Virus record (IMG/VR): IMGVR_UViG_3300035698_001623
Span: 1 to 24,650 of that record
Length of the DNA: 24,650 nt
Source of the DNA: a virus
Strand: one strand, 5' to 3'
This document shows, piece after piece, positions 3,941 to 17,018 of the stretch. Under the pieces are notes generated by a model. That model searched no databases. It was not told the origin of the DNA and saw only the letters and a list, made by a program, of their open reading frames with translations. A program made the position numbers and the translations under genes. Each line of letters opens with the position of its first letter. Position 1 is the first letter of the stretch.

Positions 3941-4144
3941 ATGACAAACGAAAATCACGATATCATGCAGAAAGTTACAATCATAAGTCTAGGCATCTTA
4001 GGTTCTTGGACGCTACAAGATATAAGTTTGTGGATGGCTATAGGTTCTGGTCTTATAGGTATAATCTATGGTATTGTTCAGATAGCTAAACTTCTTAGAG
4101 AATGGTACATTAAAGAACGAGACAGGAATAAAACTAATGGCTAA
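3941..4144 (+). CDS. putative holin
   Basis: 67 aa. A short polar N-terminus is followed by one long or two short hydrophobic segments (about residues 11-26 and 30-52, including MAIGSGLIGIIYGIVQIAKL). A strongly charged C-terminus ends the protein (REWYIKERDRNKTNG). This is the profile of small phage holins, which form membrane lesions timing lysis. It starts just after terL and overlaps the next gene by 8 nt. No endolysin is recognisable nearby, so the assignment rests on topology and size; another small membrane protein is possible. Confidence 0.55.
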   Translation: MTNENHDIMQKVTIISLGILGSWTLQDISLWMAIGSGLIGIIYGIVQIAKLLREWYIKERDRNKTNG

Positions 4145-5264
4145 ACTTACCTACGAAGAAGTGGCAGCCATGACGGATAAGAGCCAAAAAGAGAGTAGGG
4201 AAGCAACTAAAGAATTTCTTGTGGGTGCAGCTAAAGTTGTAACTACCGACCTTCCTGGGTTTTTAATGGACTTAGGAGATAAGCTAGCTGGTGATACCAA
4301 AACTTTCGGAGAGAAAGATAGATCATCTCAGTTATTTGAAAAGCTAACTGGCATAGGCAGTGCAGGATCTATAGACGAGATACTGGGTGGGATAGTTAAT
4401 CCTGCTATGTTTGTTCCTGCTTTCTTAACTAAAACTTTAGGTGCAATTCGCGGAGCCGAAAAAGCAATTAAGAAGGGCGTAAATCCCCAAAAGATATTTG
4501 ATGATCTTGAGATATTTACTGCTCCTGGCACTGATGAATTAAGATCAGTAATATCTGACAGCCGGGCTAAACTTATCGTAGGCGGCTTTGAAGGTCCACG
4601 TGCAGACACTGGTTTAGTTTATGGCCCAGATTTACTTGCGTCTAAACTAAAACTACCTGATATTCTAGACCATCCAGAATTATTTTCTGCTATACCAGAT
4701 CTAAAAGATCTTAGAGTTAGCGGTAAATTGAACTTTGGCGGTGGCGCCTATAGCCCTACAGGTAAAAGAATGTATATAGGAGCAGATAATACTGAAGAAA
4801 AAATGCTTAGCACAGTTCTGCATGAAACTCAACATGCTGTGCAGGACTACTTTAGTATGCCCCAGGGCGGTAACATGGATATGTTTATTAATGATGTAGA
4901 TGCTTTTAATGATGCTAGAAAAAGGCTAGCTAATATATTTGATAGACAAGTGCAAAGAACACAAAAACCTATAGGCGGATCTGATTCAGCTGTTAAAATG
5001 ACTTTAGATAATCGGCAGATATTAGAACGTGCCCGCACTGACGCCTTTAAGAACTACAAAAGAATAGCTGGTGAGGTTGAAGCTAGGGCAGTTGAAACAC
5101 TTAGATCAAATCCTGGTTTACGTTATAGGCTACCTACATCTTACTATGATGTACCTCTAGATAAACTAATCATGGACCCCAAAGCAGTACCCAAGGTAAC
5201 TGATGATCCTAAAGTCCGTGCCATACTTGATTATATGGCAAGCAACCCAGAGTTTGGTAAATAA
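4137..5264 (+). CDS. zincin-like putative metallopeptidase of phage polyvalent-protein type
   Basis: 375 aa. The signature is LHETQHAVQ: an HExxH motif with His229, Glu230 and His233. Downstream, GEVEAR at residues 312-317 could supply a third ligand. HExxHxxQ plus a GE-x-EAR motif is a pattern I associate with zincin-like domains in large phage virion polyproteins. Residues 1-110 are helical with a hydrophobic Ala/Gly/Phe-rich part (about 80-105). No signal peptide is evident. It lies between the holin-like gene and the portal, so it may be a virion-injected protease, a maturation protease or a cell-wall/host-targeting enzyme. Function beyond a zincin fold is not established. Confidence 0.6.
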   Translation: MAKLTYEEVAAMTDKSQKESREATKEFLVGAAKVVTTDLPGFLMDLGDKLAGDTKTFGEKDRSSQLFEKLTGIGSAGSIDEILGGIVNPAMFVPAFLTKTLGAIRGAEKAIKKGVNPQKIFDDLEIFTAPGTDELRSVISDSRAKLIVGGFEGPRADTGLVYGPDLLASKLKLPDILDHPELFSAIPDLKDLRVSGKLNFGGGAYSPTGKRMYIGADNTEEKMLSTVLHETQHAVQDYFSMPQGGNMDMFINDVDAFNDARKRLANIFDRQVQRTQKPIGGSDSAVKMTLDNRQILERARTDAFKNYKRIAGEVEARAVETLRSNPGLRYRLPTSYYDVPLDKLIMDPKAVPKVTDDPKVRAILDYMASNPEFGK

Positions 5265-7595: not shown

Positions 7596-7613
7596 CTCTC
7601 AGGAGAAATAATC

Positions 7614-10068: not shown

Positions 10069-10500
10069 ATGTCCGATACCCAATCTAAAAAGCATCTATT
10101 CTTCAGTCACTCCAAGTCAATTAACTATGCCTTCAAAAAAGGTGGCGTAGCTTCTTTTAGATTTGGTATGTTTGCTACTAGCAAAGAAGAAGAAATTGAA
10201 GAACTTACTGCTGAGATTAAAGCAGGTCATCCTTCATTCTTCATTGATCCTAATAAGCCATACATGACTGAGGAAATGGAAGATCCAATGAAGGCTATGC
10301 GCACCAAGATTATTGCAGAGCACATGGCTTCTTTAGCTCATAGCACTAACCCTGAAAATGATATGGGTAAATCTGATCAAGGCGCTTTTAGGGCAGAAAA
10401 TACTAGAGATGTAGCTAGTGTTGCTGCTGGCGGAGATGCTACTCAAAATGCTGCTAAGCTAGTTGCTTTAGCTAAAATTCAGGCTTCTGGAGCTAAGTAA
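10069..10500 (+). CDS. virion-associated hypothetical protein after the capsid gene, 143 aa
   Basis: The N-terminal half (about 8-60) reads as a small beta/alpha unit (FKKGGVASFRFGMFATSKEE, then an EIEELTAEIKAGHP helix). The C-terminal half is Ala/Gly/Asn-rich and probably flexible. Small proteins of this form often follow the major capsid gene in tailed phages and act in the head or neck; this is inference from place and shape. Start by strong CTCTCAGGAG, which is buried in the hairpin described at 9997-10060. Its TAA overlaps the next ATG. Confidence 0.55.
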   Translation: MSDTQSKKHLFFSHSKSINYAFKKGGVASFRFGMFATSKEEEIEELTAEIKAGHPSFFIDPNKPYMTEEMEDPMKAMRTKIIAEHMASLAHSTNPENDMGKSDQGAFRAENTRDVASVAAGGDATQNAAKLVALAKIQASGAK

Positions 10501-11093
10501 TGACACTGACTGAATTGCGGCAAGAGGTTTACACGCTAACTAATAGGCCGGATCTGGTTAATGAAACCTTAACTGCAATTCGGTCAGCCACGCTTAAGTT
10601 ACACACGCTAGATTATTTCTATAAAGATATATTTGAGACTGGAATAACCTTTCCAGATCCTGGCTATCTTCAACAACTAGAGTATAGAACAGTAGTTCCT
10701 CGTTGGCGTGCACTAAAGTATCTGCGTAAAACAGACGTATCGGCTCACCAAGATGGAGAGTTTCTAACTGTCCTCTCAATTCCAGAGATGGTTGAGGACG
10801 ATTATAAGCTCAATAGAAATAACGTATGTTATGTAGCAGGCCAAATAGTGCAAATAAGGTCTTCGGACCTTTTACAGTATGCGCTTCTAGGTTGCTACAT
10901 ATACCCAGATATCACTGAAGCTGACTATGATTCATGGATTGCATTAGATCATCCATATGCTATCGTATTTGAAGCTGCCAGTAAAGTCTTCAAGATAATT
11001 GGGGATACTGATCAATTCAATGCCTTCACTCAACTAGCAAGAGAAGAGGCTGCTATGATCTCCATGAGTAACATTCAAGCTGTGGGATACTAA
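10500..11093 (+). CDS. putative head-tail adaptor / connector protein
   Basis: 197 aa. It begins with a helical segment typical of adaptor proteins (TLTELRQEVYTLTNRPDLVN, then a helix to about 37). A beta-containing middle (ALKYLRK onward) and C-terminal helices (AIVFEAASKVFKIIGDTDQF, then LAREEAAMI) follow. Phage gatekeeper/adaptor proteins (tail tubular protein A type) share the pattern of long helices flanking a small beta region, and are encoded just after the head genes. No unique motif proves it. It is coupled to the upstream gene through TAATG, with GGAG nearby. Confidence 0.55.
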   Translation: MTLTELRQEVYTLTNRPDLVNETLTAIRSATLKLHTLDYFYKDIFETGITFPDPGYLQQLEYRTVVPRWRALKYLRKTDVSAHQDGEFLTVLSIPEMVEDDYKLNRNNVCYVAGQIVQIRSSDLLQYALLGCYIYPDITEADYDSWIALDHPYAIVFEAASKVFKIIGDTDQFNAFTQLAREEAAMISMSNIQAVGY

Positions 11094-11096
11094 ATT

Positions 11097-12368
11097 ATGA
11101 CTGCATCTATATGGTTTCCAGGTTCTCCTATATCTGTATTAGACAGAATACTTAGAGTACCTATTGGTGAGCAAGTAACTGATGTACCTGCATTAGCTGA
11201 GCGCGCACTTAAAACATTAGCTTTTGATGCGCTAGGTAATCCTATTGCACTTGCACCAATTCCTGGCCCTAGAGGACCTACTGGGCCTAAAGGAAATAAA
11301 GGAGACACAGGTGCAAAAGGTGACCCAGGTAACTATCTAGGTTTTGATCTAATAGGTGCTAGTACTGATATTGCTGATCGTCCAGTTAGTGCAAGTGATG
11401 GAGAAGCTTGGGGTCTATTAGTTGATGATACTATTCGTGTATACATCTGGTTTGATGGTGCATGGTATGATGCTGGAACAATTACTAGTAGCGTATCTGT
11501 ACCTGCTGCTGGAATATTCTATGTAACTAAAGGAGGTTCTGATTCTAACTCAGGCCTATCTTTAGATAATCCACTTCTAACTATTAATGCTGCTGTAGAT
11601 GCTGCAATAGCTTTAGGTACTCCTTGTGCTATTAGTGTTTATCCCGGCGAATATGAAGAAGCAGCGGAGATATCTGTACCAGACAATTGTGCTATAGTAG
11701 GTGCACTTGGTCAGTTCCTTACTAAGGTAGTTCCTACTAGCGGAGATGAACAAAAGAACATGTTCCTAGTAGGGAGTGGTTGTTATATTCAGGGGTTTTC
11801 CTTTAGTGGAATGCAGATAGATGACTTTGATGACCCAACTGGGGGCTTTGCAGTAGCTTTTCGCCCAGATGCTTTAATCATACGTTCTCCTTATATCAGA
11901 GATATATCACAAATTAGCAACTATCCTGCTACTCAGATAGCTCCTGCTAATGATGTAGCTGATGCTAATCCTTCAGTTGGTGTAGGTGGTGGTGTACTTC
12001 TAGCAGATAGAAGTGTATTAGATCCTAATAGCATCTTTCCTTACATGCTAGCTTTCGGTGCAACTCCCCGCTCACCTAATGGAATGGGCTATGTAGCAAA
12101 GAATGGCGCGGGCATTAACGGTATATCCTCTATATCAATCTTTCAGCGTTACGGATTCTATGCACTAAATGGTGGGCAGATCACGCTAAACAATAGTGGA
12201 ACTCAGTTCGGTGACTACTCTATGTATGCTAAGGGTAGCATGGATGTAGTTATACCTTCAGTTTCTACTGAATCATTACTAGAGTCTGGAGCTGCGGGTA
12301 CATTATTAGAAGATAATAGTGCAGATATTGTAGATACTGTTTGGTCAGATCTAGTATCTAATGGTTAA
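11097..12368 (+). CDS. collagen-like / beta-helix tail fibre, N-terminal portion (ends at an in-frame TAA)
   Basis: 423 aa up to a TAA. A short N-terminal attachment region (1-55) is followed by seven Gly-X-Y collagen-like triplets (residues 57-78), which trimerise fibre proteins. A short linker domain (about 80-135) leads into a right-handed beta-helix-like region from about residue 140 (FYVTKGGSDSNSG, TINAAVDAA, ISVYPGEYEEAA), with NGAGINGISSISIFQRYGFY near 345-365. The reading frame continues without interruption after the TAA at 12366-12368 into the next ORF, giving 623 residues in all. It therefore looks like the first part of a longer adhesin. Likely role: host receptor binding. Confidence 0.75.
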   Translation: MTASIWFPGSPISVLDRILRVPIGEQVTDVPALAERALKTLAFDALGNPIALAPIPGPRGPTGPKGNKGDTGAKGDPGNYLGFDLIGASTDIADRPVSASDGEAWGLLVDDTIRVYIWFDGAWYDAGTITSSVSVPAAGIFYVTKGGSDSNSGLSLDNPLLTINAAVDAAIALGTPCAISVYPGEYEEAAEISVPDNCAIVGALGQFLTKVVPTSGDEQKNMFLVGSGCYIQGFSFSGMQIDDFDDPTGGFAVAFRPDALIIRSPYIRDISQISNYPATQIAPANDVADANPSVGVGGGVLLADRSVLDPNSIFPYMLAFGATPRSPNGMGYVAKNGAGINGISSISIFQRYGFYALNGGQITLNNSGTQFGDYSMYAKGSMDVVIPSVSTESLLESGAAGTLLEDNSADIVDTVWSDLVSNG

Positions 12369-12446
12369 ACTGCTGGATGGCCGGCCGAAGCTGAAACATT
12401 TACACGCAGAGATGCAGCTAACCTTATTCAAGCTATAGCTTTCGAT
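12366..12446 (+). other. in-frame TAA and open coding segment joining two fibre ORFs
   Basis: The TAA at 12366-12368 is in the same frame as both the 423-codon ORF before it and the ORF starting at 12447. The 26 codons between the TAA and that ATG are open and protein-like (TAGWPAEAETFTRRDAANLI). They contain no ATG, GTG or TTG start. An 8-bp GGCCGGCC palindrome lies shortly after the stop. Readthrough, a point nonsense mutation or a sequence error would all explain this. Confidence 0.75.
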
Positions 12447-12968
12447 ATGTTTAGTGGAACACAAACTTCTACTCAAGCATTTGGTATGGGACTATACACA
12501 TATGATGCTACTCCAGTATTTAATGTGTCATACAAGACTGCGTTCTTAGCTTCTTTTGGCTACCTACACACTGCCATAGAAACATATGTTACTGATACTG
12601 CACAAAGAACTGCTATTAGTGGGTTAATTGATCTAGTAACTGAGATGGTAGATACACCTAACATTGCCCAGTTTGGATCACTTATTGAAAGCTTAGGTCA
12701 TCAGTTTAACAATGCAGGTGCCGGAGTTAACGTAAATGCCTTACCTACTAACTTCCGTAGACCGGGAACTAACAGAGATGTTACCTTCACAGTCCTACAA
12801 GATACTGGAGGTAGAGTAAGATGGTCAGGTGCTGATGAAAAGAACAATCAATACTTTGCTGGCGGCACGCGAATTAACGGACTAACTGGCAAACTAGAAG
12901 GTAGACCTTTTACTGCTAGTGTTAGGCAAATTGCAAGACGTATATCTAACTCCAGAGGATTCTTCTAA
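12447..12968 (+). CDS. tail fibre C-terminal portion, in frame with the preceding ORF
   Basis: 173 aa from the first ATG, but no Shine-Dalgarno precedes it, and protein-like coding extends upstream to the TAA at 12366-12368. It is therefore probably the C-terminal domain of the 11097 fibre, not an independent gene. The segment beginning FTRRDAANLIQAIAFDMFSG resembles the RD-x-x-x-IV-x-A-x-x-x-D type repeats of phage fibre proteins. The C-terminus is basic (SVRQIARRISNSRGFF). It overlaps the next gene as TAATG. If the TAA is a true stop, this portion is a silent remnant or is made only by readthrough or reinitiation. Confidence 0.6.
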   Translation: MFSGTQTSTQAFGMGLYTYDATPVFNVSYKTAFLASFGYLHTAIETYVTDTAQRTAISGLIDLVTEMVDTPNIAQFGSLIESLGHQFNNAGAGVNVNALPTNFRRPGTNRDVTFTVLQDTGGRVRWSGADEKNNQYFAGGTRINGLTGKLEGRPFTASVRQIARRISNSRGFF

Positions 12969-13390
12969 TGACTACTGTAACTACTTCACAAGCGCCGACA
13001 GCTAAACCTGTAGGTGTATCTCTTGAACTTACTACTGCATACCAGACAATCATAGCAGTTCCTGATTATCTTATTCCAGTAGCCGGTAGTACTGATCCAA
13101 CTGAAACTAGAACTGCGCCAGGTGTAGCAGAAGTTAGCTCCCCCTTGTTACTTACCAATAAGGATTCAGTGAGTAGAACTGTCTCAGTTAGGATTACTCG
13201 GGCCGGAGGTGGCTCATTTATTTTAGCTAATGCCTTAGTAGTTGAACCCTATGATGTAGTCATTTTCCCACTTAATGGACAGTTCCTACAGACTGATGAT
13301 GTGCTACAAGTGCTAGCTTCAGCTAATAGTGCTGTAGATGCTACTATTAGTTATACCGTAGGCCAAGCGGAGGAAGATGATGTTATCTAA
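12968..13390 (+). CDS. small beta-rich virion protein, 140 aa
   Basis: The start overlaps the preceding stop (TAATG), with GAGGA upstream. The product is Val/Thr/Ser-rich and predicted to be a beta-sandwich (VSLELTTAYQTIIAVPDYLI, then VSRTVSVRITRAGG, then an acidic tail EEDDVI). No Cys and no membrane segment. Small beta proteins between fibre genes commonly act as fibre adaptors, caps or chaperones; this role is inferred from context. Function not recognised. Confidence 0.6.
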   Translation: MTTVTTSQAPTAKPVGVSLELTTAYQTIIAVPDYLIPVAGSTDPTETRTAPGVAEVSSPLLLTNKDSVSRTVSVRITRAGGGSFILANALVVEPYDVVIFPLNGQFLQTDDVLQVLASANSAVDATISYTVGQAEEDDVI

Positions 13391-14624
13391 AACAGCTATG
13401 AGTAGGCAGGCTCTGGGTCACGGTAAACGTGTATCTTTACCTATTCCCTATGATCCAGTAAGGCATAAAGGTTTTAGTGTCATAGGTACTGACAATAACA
13501 TGTATGTCAGTAATGGTACAGCTTGGATTCAAATATATACATTTGATCCTGATGCTCCACCAATCACTGCACTTACATCTTCCATAGAATTTACTGTAGG
13601 TTCTGGTGGAGACTTCCCCAACCTAAACGCAGTATTTGAATATTTGTCAGTATTTCAACCTTACTACCGAGCAGATTGGCCCACTGCTGGAACTGCCACA
13701 GTTGTAGTTCGTATACTTAGCGGTACTGTCCTAGCAGAACAGCTTAGTTTTATCAACCAAGATATGAGTTGGGTATATATTTATGCAGATGATGCAACTG
13801 TAGAAGTTGATCCAACTGCACTAGAGATAGCTACTTACTACATTGATAGAGAGCATGCACTATTCTTTTCTCTAGGTACGGCACTACCCAACATCACTGG
13901 TATTACTTTTACTTTAGGTGTTGGTACTATTCCTCAAGACCCAGGCCTAATTGCAGGGATTGGTGCATACACACCTAAATCAACATGCTTTTCTGTGCGA
14001 GATGGTAGCCAAATCAGTATGGGGACTTATGAAGTTTCTGCTGTTTATCGTCTTCCAGGTGCAGAAGGTTGGAATAAAGGTGCTACTGTAGGTAACAATT
14101 CTCGCATTTCAGCACTGGGAGGTAACTTCTCAAACTGCTTTGAAGTAGGCCTAACAATACAAAATGGTAGTAGGGCAAAACTTTGGGCATGTGATGCTAC
14201 AGGTGCAGGTACTACTGGAATAAACGTAGCTGCTAATTCTCAAATATCTGTCACTAATAGTACATCTCTCATACCAGGATTCTCATCAAACTTTAGAAAA
14301 AGTGTTGGTATAGATAGCGTAAATGATATTGTAGTAACAAATGGTAGTTTTGCTGACATAGGTAACGGAGTTCTTGGAGGCACTAATACCCCTGCAAATG
14401 CCGTTACTAACAATGGTATTATCTTTCGTGGTGATGTTGGTCCTGCTGTACCTACTGGTATTTTTAAGCCTGATCCATACACTGTAGGCACACTACCTGA
14501 TGTTGCTGTGTATGATGCTTGTTTAATTCATGTAGCTGATGGGGATACTGGATCTCCATGTCTTGCAGTTAGTAATGGAACAAATTGGTTGCGGATAGCT
14601 CTTGGCGCCGCTGTATCTACTTAA
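13380..14624 (+). CDS. tail spike/fibre with pectin-lyase-like beta-helix
   Basis: Two adjacent ATGs exist (13377 and 13380). GGAGG at 13369-13373 is 6 nt from the second, so 13380 is preferred, giving 414 aa. A short attachment region (about 1-65) is followed by FTVGSGGDFPNLNAVFEYLS, a classic opening of pectin-lyase-like beta-helix spikes. Repeating beta-turn units then run to about residue 335 (ISALGG, LWACDATGAG, ISVTNSTS). A small C-terminal domain (about 345-414) repeats the display-like ending VSNGTNWLRI. Probably a second receptor-binding protein; no catalytic residues are assigned. It overlaps the upstream gene by 11 nt. Confidence 0.7.
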   Translation: MLSKTAMSRQALGHGKRVSLPIPYDPVRHKGFSVIGTDNNMYVSNGTAWIQIYTFDPDAPPITALTSSIEFTVGSGGDFPNLNAVFEYLSVFQPYYRADWPTAGTATVVVRILSGTVLAEQLSFINQDMSWVYIYADDATVEVDPTALEIATYYIDREHALFFSLGTALPNITGITFTLGVGTIPQDPGLIAGIGAYTPKSTCFSVRDGSQISMGTYEVSAVYRLPGAEGWNKGATVGNNSRISALGGNFSNCFEVGLTIQNGSRAKLWACDATGAGTTGINVAANSQISVTNSTSLIPGFSSNFRKSVGIDSVNDIVVTNGSFADIGNGVLGGTNTPANAVTNNGIIFRGDVGPAVPTGIFKPDPYTVGTLPDVAVYDACLIHVADGDTGSPCLAVSNGTNWLRIALGAAVST

Positions 14625-14636
14625 GGAGAATGTATT

Positions 14637-14897
14637 ATGGCCACCACTGTTACCCTACATTTTTACGAATTCCTAGCTAGGCTAGATAAAGATGCGGAAG
14701 TTGCCCCAGGAGAAGCTACTCCTATAGGTATGCATATCAGATTTACTAGGAGAGTAACTACTGATGGAGTAGTAACCTCAGAAACCTTACTTCAACCTAG
14801 AGCTGCTACCTATGTTGATCTAGTTGAAGCACTTGCTCTTACAGAGTTAAACGATCTAGACGCTAAAGTTACAGCAGAAAAAAGTAGCAGGGGCTAA
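14637..14897 (+). CDS. hypothetical virion-module protein, 86 aa
   Basis: Preceded by AAGGAGAA, an excellent Shine-Dalgarno, 7-9 nt upstream. An N-terminal helix (LHFYEFLARLDKDAEVAPGE) leads into a short beta region (IGMHIRFTRRVTTDG) and a C-terminal helix. No domain is recognised. It lies between the spike and the heme oxygenase-like gene, whose ATG overlaps its stop (TAATG), so the two are probably co-translated. Confidence 0.6.
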   Translation: MATTVTLHFYEFLARLDKDAEVAPGEATPIGMHIRFTRRVTTDGVVTSETLLQPRAATYVDLVEALALTELNDLDAKVTAEKSSRG

Positions 14898-15391
14898 TGA
14901 ACTTAAGAGAAATCACCAGGCCGCTGCATCATTCTGCTGAGCAGCATCCTATTGGCGCAGCTATGGCTAATGGAACTATAAGCAAACAAGATTGGGCAGA
15001 TTGGCTTGGTGCTTTACTTATTGTCCATAGAAAAATAGACCCTTTACTTCCTGCTGCTTGTGGTAGAGTGTCGCAGATTCTTTCTGATTTAGAGGCATGT
15101 AAACCTTTTGAACCTAGAGAGAATCTACCCGCTATAAGTTATGCTAATAGTCTAACTAGCTATCAAGGTGCATTCTACGTATTTACTGGCGCACATTTAA
15201 TGGGCGGCGCAGTTATAAGAAAGCGCTTAGTTAATAGACTACCTTGTGAACACCTAGCTTGGGCGGATAGAAAAGAAGCTATACAAAGCTGGCAGCATTT
15301 AAGAGAAGCAACTGAACACGCTAAAGCTTCTAAGGATGCGTTCTCTGCTATCCTAAGGATCATGGATGCTATATATGCACACTCCACATGA
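14897..15391 (+). CDS. heme oxygenase-like protein
   Basis: 164 aa, all-helical. The N-terminus (LREITRPLHHSAEQHP) matches the first helix of bacterial heme oxygenases, with His11 (or His12) at the proximal heme-ligand position. YVFTGAHLMGG at residues 94-104 corresponds to the distal helix and its flexible Gly-Gly kink (YVLEGSxLGG in HemO/BphO-type enzymes). It resembles the bacterial HemO/BphO class more than the cyanobacterial HO1 class, and is somewhat shorter than typical enzymes. Heme oxygenases cleave heme to biliverdin, iron and CO. Whether this copy is catalytic or a virion protein re-using the fold is unknown. It is coupled to the preceding gene by TAATG inside the tail module. Confidence 0.65.
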   Translation: MNLREITRPLHHSAEQHPIGAAMANGTISKQDWADWLGALLIVHRKIDPLLPAACGRVSQILSDLEACKPFEPRENLPAISYANSLTSYQGAFYVFTGAHLMGGAVIRKRLVNRLPCEHLAWADRKEAIQSWQHLREATEHAKASKDAFSAILRIMDAIYAHST

Positions 15392-15467
15392 ATTAACTAC
15401 TGCAGATTATGCAGAACTATTTAAGCTTATCTGGGATTCCCTGAAAAGTTTATGGAATGGAGCTTAA
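15366..15467 (+). CDS. small ORF between heme oxygenase-like and nozzle genes, 33 aa
   Basis: The ATG at 15366 has AAGGA 6 nt upstream, inside the end of the heme oxygenase-like gene (26-nt overlap, different frame). The stop lies 3 nt before the next gene. The product has a polar start and an amphipathic helix (ADYAELFKLIWDSLKSLW). It fills a gap that would otherwise be unusually long for this operon and may couple the nozzle-like gene to upstream translation. Function unknown. Confidence 0.5.
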   Translation: MLYMHTPHELTTADYAELFKLIWDSLKSLWNGA

Positions 15468-15470
15468 ATA

Positions 15471-17018
15471 ATGGGCGAAGTATTCAGAGCTAACTTATCT
15501 TCCGCAGTGTTTCCTATGACACTAGCGGATGCTGGTCGTACAGTTATATCTCAGCAAGGCGATCAGAATTACGATAAGCGCGTAGATCCTCAGGGTACTC
15601 AAAAAGATGCAGGTATTCCTCAGGCTATTTATTTACAGGATGTAATTCCTACAGTAAATGGATATCAGAGTATAGGATATAATTCAGATACTAAACCTAT
15701 GCCACCTAGACAAAGTGGTACAGGTACACTAGCACTGGTACAGAGTTTTGTAGTAGATGTTCCTGGTCGTAGCTTACCTGCAATTTTAGTGCAGCGGCAA
15801 GGCACTCTTAGTTATCATGACGTAGTATCTATTCCTATTACTTTTAGTACTTCTTGGCAATATCAGGCAACAACCGTTAGACCTGTAAAAGGTTTAGAGG
15901 ATTCTACCATTGCTACAGTTCGTGGAGTTAATTACTGGTGTGATGGCAGTACTATATTTAGTTTTACTATAGATCCTAATACCTATCAGGTTACATTTCT
16001 AAGTCTACTCACTGTAATTACTGGAATAACTATAGCCACTATTAAAGCTATATGTAGTTCATATAATTACCTAATAGCTATAGATGATAACAATGTAGTA
16101 CACTGGTCATCTACAACTACGCCAACTGATTTTGTACCCTCATTAGTTACGGGTGCAGGATCTGAAATACCCTCAGATTTACAAGGTCAGGCTAGGTTTA
16201 TACTTACACATCCTGACGGATTTATTATCTATTCAGATCGTAATGCTGTATTTGCTAGATACACTGGTAATGCTAGATATCCATTCAAATTTACTCCAAT
16301 AGCTGATGCTGGCGGATACACTACAGTTAAACAAGTAAGCGGTAATAACCAATCCCTAGTTCACTACGGTTTGGATAATTCTAACAAGGTACAGATATTA
16401 AAAGAAGGCCGCGCCGAGTTAGTTGCTCCGGAGGTCACTACTTATCTGGAAAGAAAAACCTATAGAGATACTTTTGATTATGCAACAAATGCGTTTGGTA
16501 AAACTAATTTACCTTTATATGCTGTGCACTTCCTACTGGATAGATATATAATCATAGGTGATTTTGTTTATGATACACTGCTGCAGAGATATGGTAAGCT
16601 AAGCTATGATTATCACTCTATATGTGCCTCAGATAGATATATAGTTTTTATACCCAATAATAGTACAGGCAAACCTGCTAAGTTATCTTTTGATATATAT
16701 GATTCATTAGCTACATTCCAGGGTGTATTATTGCTAGGTAAGTTCCAAGTTGTTAGATCTAGAAATATAAAACTAGAGGGTGTAGAAGTAGAGTCAAGTC
16801 AGGATGCCAGCTTAGTTACACCTAACTTCTCTATGTATCTATATCCTTCATTAGATGGCAAGAATTTCTTATCTCCTATAGAATTAACTTGTACCTTTTC
16901 TGATGAACTAATAACTGCGCCCGTGCACAATACCGCTAAGAACCACTCTATCTTACTAAAGGGTGCTTTTGATATTAACACCTTGCAGCTAGATTTTACA
17001 ATTGCTGGAGGTAGATAG
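15471..17018 (+). CDS. putative tail nozzle / beta-propeller-like structural protein
   Basis: 515 aa, almost entirely beta-strand by composition. The N-terminus contains a YLQDVIPTVNGYQSIGY segment (about residues 53-69), like the opening VxPTxxGYxxxGY region of podovirus nozzle-type proteins. Repeated blade-like units follow (for example VRGVNYWCDGSTIFSF, LIAIDDNNVVHWSS, FIIYSDRNAVFARYTG, IIGDFVYDTLLQRYGKLSYD), suggesting a propeller. Nozzle proteins close the tail tube beneath the adaptor and direct DNA and ejection proteins. The call rests on fold pattern and position; a different beta-propeller tail protein is possible. It ends in TAG, overlapping a GTG start. Confidence 0.5.
   Translation: MGEVFRANLSSAVFPMTLADAGRTVISQQGDQNYDKRVDPQGTQKDAGIPQAIYLQDVIPTVNGYQSIGYNSDTKPMPPRQSGTGTLALVQSFVVDVPGRSLPAILVQRQGTLSYHDVVSIPITFSTSWQYQATTVRPVKGLEDSTIATVRGVNYWCDGSTIFSFTIDPNTYQVTFLSLLTVITGITIATIKAICSSYNYLIAIDDNNVVHWSSTTTPTDFVPSLVTGAGSEIPSDLQGQARFILTHPDGFIIYSDRNAVFARYTGNARYPFKFTPIADAGGYTTVKQVSGNNQSLVHYGLDNSNKVQILKEGRAELVAPEVTTYLERKTYRDTFDYATNAFGKTNLPLYAVHFLLDRYIIIGDFVYDTLLQRYGKLSYDYHSICASDRYIVFIPNNSTGKPAKLSFDIYDSLATFQGVLLLGKFQVVRSRNIKLEGVEVESSQDASLVTPNFSMYLYPSLDGKNFLSPIELTCTFSDELITAPVHNTAKNHSILLKGAFDINTLQLDFTIAGGR

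Follow-up and report, generated by a model that had tools for sequence, protein, structure and literature searches.

The fibre locus and its in-frame stop

In the window analysed here (the whole stretch of DNA, a single contig of 24,650 bases from an uncultivated virus record in IMG/VR), the reading frame of a tail fibre is interrupted by an in-frame TAA codon. This raises the question of whether the stop is read through to give two forms of the fibre, whether it separates two genes, or whether one gene has simply been broken. We put the probability at about 0.93 that this is one 623-codon tail-fibre gene broken by a private single-base nonsense substitution, whether this is a real allele or a wrong base in the consensus. 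The features of the locus are as follows.

11097..12365, + strand: N-terminal 423 codons of the fibre gene, with a collagen-like stretch and the adhesin region (phrog_29288, E 1.7e-21; phrog_13163, E 1.1e-17)
12366..12368, + strand: in-frame TAA at codon 424, interrupting the fibre frame; TAT (Tyr) in the closest relative
12369..12968, + strand: remainder of the fibre frame, 199 codons plus the terminal stop; the last ~105 residues are the family's conserved C-terminal region
12447..12968, + strand: 173-aa ORF from the mechanical calling, with its ATG at codon 451 of the fibre frame; it has no Shine-Dalgarno, its start falls within a predicted helix, and it is a separate gene in no relative found

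The original prediction held that the 423- and 173-codon ORFs share one frame and that the 26 codons from the TAA to the next ATG (codons 425-450) are open, and the reading frames bore out both points. The ORF at 11097-12368 (423 aa), which ends in the TAA, and the open stretch at 12369-12968, which contains the second ORF (12447-12968, 173 aa), together make up one frame of 623 residues. This continuity is not a matter of chance, because in the nearest relative, described below, this frame is uninterrupted and forms a single ORF of 623 aa.

The phage and its relatives among isolates

The phage carries an SU10-type major capsid protein (SU10_MCP, PF17236, E 4.3e-42), and the named phages nearest to it by capsid, at 36% identity, were Polaromonas phage Tiera and Pseudomonas phages of the PaP2/PaMx41 type. 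In the N-terminal part of the fibre, a short collagen-like stretch (about residues 55-79) is followed by an adhesin region common to the tail fibre and baseplate wedge families of phages; over about residues 110-400, the profiles phrog_29288 and phrog_13163 (baseplate wedge subunit) were matched with E values of 1e-17 to 1e-21. Isolate phages, searched at both the nucleotide and the protein level, gave no match to the fibre or to its C-terminal part, and none of the solved structures matched the fibre by sequence. When the protein of the intact relative was used as the query against isolate phages, only weak matches were obtained, to the adhesin region of cyanophages at about 30% identity; these included Synechococcus phage proteins annotated as tail fibers protein or baseplate wedge initiator. 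Matches in isolate phages were confined to fibre residues 141-399, whereas the C-terminal region was covered by none.

A near-identical phage has a tyrosine codon at the site of the stop

A search with the part of the frame that follows the stop recovered the phage IMGVR_UViG_3300037330_000021 (locus L001, and L007 in the comparison over aligned blocks) together with four more distant phages. Around the fibre gene, IMGVR_UViG_3300037330_000021 was found to be 99.7% identical in DNA to the window over 6,654 bases, and its fibre gene is an intact 623-aa ORF (L001, 3729-5600) with the same neighbours, the same frame length and a protein that is 99.7% identical. Three bases differ between the two fibre genes: 12368, where codon 424 is TAA in the window whereas it is TAT (Tyr) in L001; 12542, which is silent; and 12945, which exchanges Ser and Ala. 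The sense codon that the original prediction had proposed to look for in close relatives is thus present, and this result contradicts readthrough. The break would have arisen by the change of one base in a Tyr codon, giving TAA at codon 424, the direction most probably being from sense to stop. No second near-identical relative was found in the collections searched, and no other IMG/VR contig contained the DNA flanking codon 424, whichever third base the codon was given.

When the window was compared with L007 in aligned blocks, 52 substitutions plus indels were counted. Forty-two of the substitutions lie in ORFs (a count that includes two minus-strand ORFs, possibly not genes), and comprise 18 silent changes, 23 replacements and 1 stop. 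At the observed share of transitions, 3.0% of changes would be expected to create stops if there were no selection, which amounts to 1.27 among 42 coding substitutions; therefore, one stop needs no special cause.

Two further differences between these phages were observed. At 4137-5264, the window encodes an intact 375-aa ORF with an HExxH-type motif (LHETQHAVQ), about 920 bp of which (window ~4143-5062) are absent from L007, and the two edges of the missing stretch carry a near-identical 7-base repeat; either the deletion is real or the assemblies differ. At 13704-14011, in the next fibre-like gene, there are 6 differences from L007 in about 300 bases, all of them changing amino acids, and this cluster may represent assembly noise (it lies near the end of the L007 contig) or fast evolution of the fibre.

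The fibre gene is unsplit in the wider family

A profile built from the proteins of these five phages detected 80 loci in IMG/VR, corresponding to 57 homologous genes when each distinct gene was counted once. In 33 of these, a single ORF runs from the adhesin region through to the conserved C-terminal region, and a split fibre gene was seen in none of the 33; in the other 24, the sequence ends before the C-terminal region, and the frame is open up to that end. The relatives vary in length from 552 residues to more than 1,500, but in every case no stop separates the adhesin region from the C-terminal region. The last ~105 residues of the fibre share 51-80% identity with divergent relatives (one aligned sequence, L048, is cut by the end of its contig). 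Because the C-terminal end is conserved to this degree, a product of 423 residues would be missing a region retained in all relatives that could be judged. If the stop is a genuine allele, this product would most likely not work as a normal fibre, and the part after the stop is probably not translated.

The surroundings of the gene were also compared. The slot between a 197-aa gene (10500-11093) and a 515-aa gene (15471-17018) holds a multi-gene fibre module in the window (11097-15391), while in the related phages L011 and L012 it is occupied by just one gene, a different one, of about 500 aa; no homologues of the tested fibre-module genes were found in L009-L016. From gene content, the fibre module in the 10500-17018 slot looks to have been swapped.

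Real allele or consensus error

The odds between a real nonsense allele and a consensus error are roughly even. We consider it somewhat short of an even chance that the TAA arose in sequencing or assembly and that the phage itself has a sense codon here. Such an error is favoured by the fact that a true stop would delete a C-terminal region conserved in all resolvable relatives, and that the record is a contig of an uncultivated virus. However, the change is a substitution and not a homopolymer indel, and real strain variation is also present, as 52 substitutions plus indels separate the contigs.

A real allele would have a precedent in a laboratory phage, the kayvirus mutant 812K1/420, in which a premature stop likewise breaks the tail fibre gene into two ORFs, and in which another gene is split by a nonsense mutation that leaves the frame unchanged (PMC6445280). 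The premature stop in the fibre gene of that isolate resulted from a 77-bp deletion (PMC6445280), whereas the stop described here is due to a substituted base, and the phage is a different one, represented by an uncultivated record. We regard it as very improbable that the stop was recently gained in the lineage of the window as a tolerated or useful change that switches off or tunes down the C-terminal region, and that it is kept in the population as a variant of the host-range kind.

Readthrough and a separate downstream gene

Besides a nonsense mutation or a sequence error, both of which stand, the original prediction had listed programmed readthrough, which does not. Under programmed readthrough, adhesins of two lengths (423 aa and 623 aa) would be made in set proportion, and the open frame on each side of the stop is compatible with this. 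However, a stop that serves such a purpose should be kept in close relatives, and codon 424 is a sense codon in the 99.7%-identical phage and a stop in no homologue. Stimulating RNA structures just past readthrough stops are common, although not universal; the fold of 12366-12465 was no better than those of shuffled sequences (z 0.18). TAA terminates 19 of the 22 + strand ORFs counted, the 423-aa ORF and 18 others, and it is thus an ordinary stop here, as had been supposed when recoding was judged unlikely. With this usage, and with no tRNA genes in the window, reassignment of TAA as a sense codon was rejected. The tail genes of P2-like phages were also considered as a readthrough precedent and set aside, the mechanism there being a -1 frameshift and not readthrough of an in-frame stop.

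AlphaFold was run on a five-row alignment; the model was poor overall (mean pLDDT 44.6), and hence only the stretch 391-520 was used. About these residues a helical domain was predicted (pLDDT mostly 64-89) that spans the TAA, which falls between the predicted helices 408-421 and 430-453, that is, inside the domain and not at its edge. The ATG that opens the 173-aa ORF (codon 451) lies within predicted helix 430-453. As modelled, the positions of the stop and of the ATG are at odds both with a short form designed to end where a domain ends and with a downstream product that is a protein in its own right. Since the 99.7%-identical phage and all other complete relatives found lack the stop, no special readthrough mechanism is needed, and we hold programmed readthrough to be extremely unlikely.

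That 12447-12968 is a separate 173-aa gene with its own start is hardly credible: it begins with ATG and its end coincides with the start of the following gene, but it forms one ORF with the upstream part in every homologue that could be judged, its ATG has no Shine-Dalgarno (duplex energy +0.3 kcal/mol; the other genes beyond position 7600 have -4 to -10.6), and the sole + strand promoter-like site in the scanned stretch 11000-13500 sits inside the ORF, downstream of its start, with none upstream of 12447. Promoter-like sites in this stretch were fewer than in shuffled sequences. The lack of a Shine-Dalgarno agrees with the original prediction, as does the lack of an earlier start after the TAA: ATG, GTG and TTG are absent before 12447, and only ATT (12426) and ATA (12435) occur.

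Implications

Taken together, these data settle that a candidate recoding event is, in all likelihood, a nonsense codon of the ordinary kind, private to this record, and in the annotation a single fibre gene with an interruption should replace the 423-aa and 173-aa calls. Broken fibre genes through premature stops are already known in phages; if the allele is real, it would only exemplify the polymorphism of such genes in an uncultivated phage.
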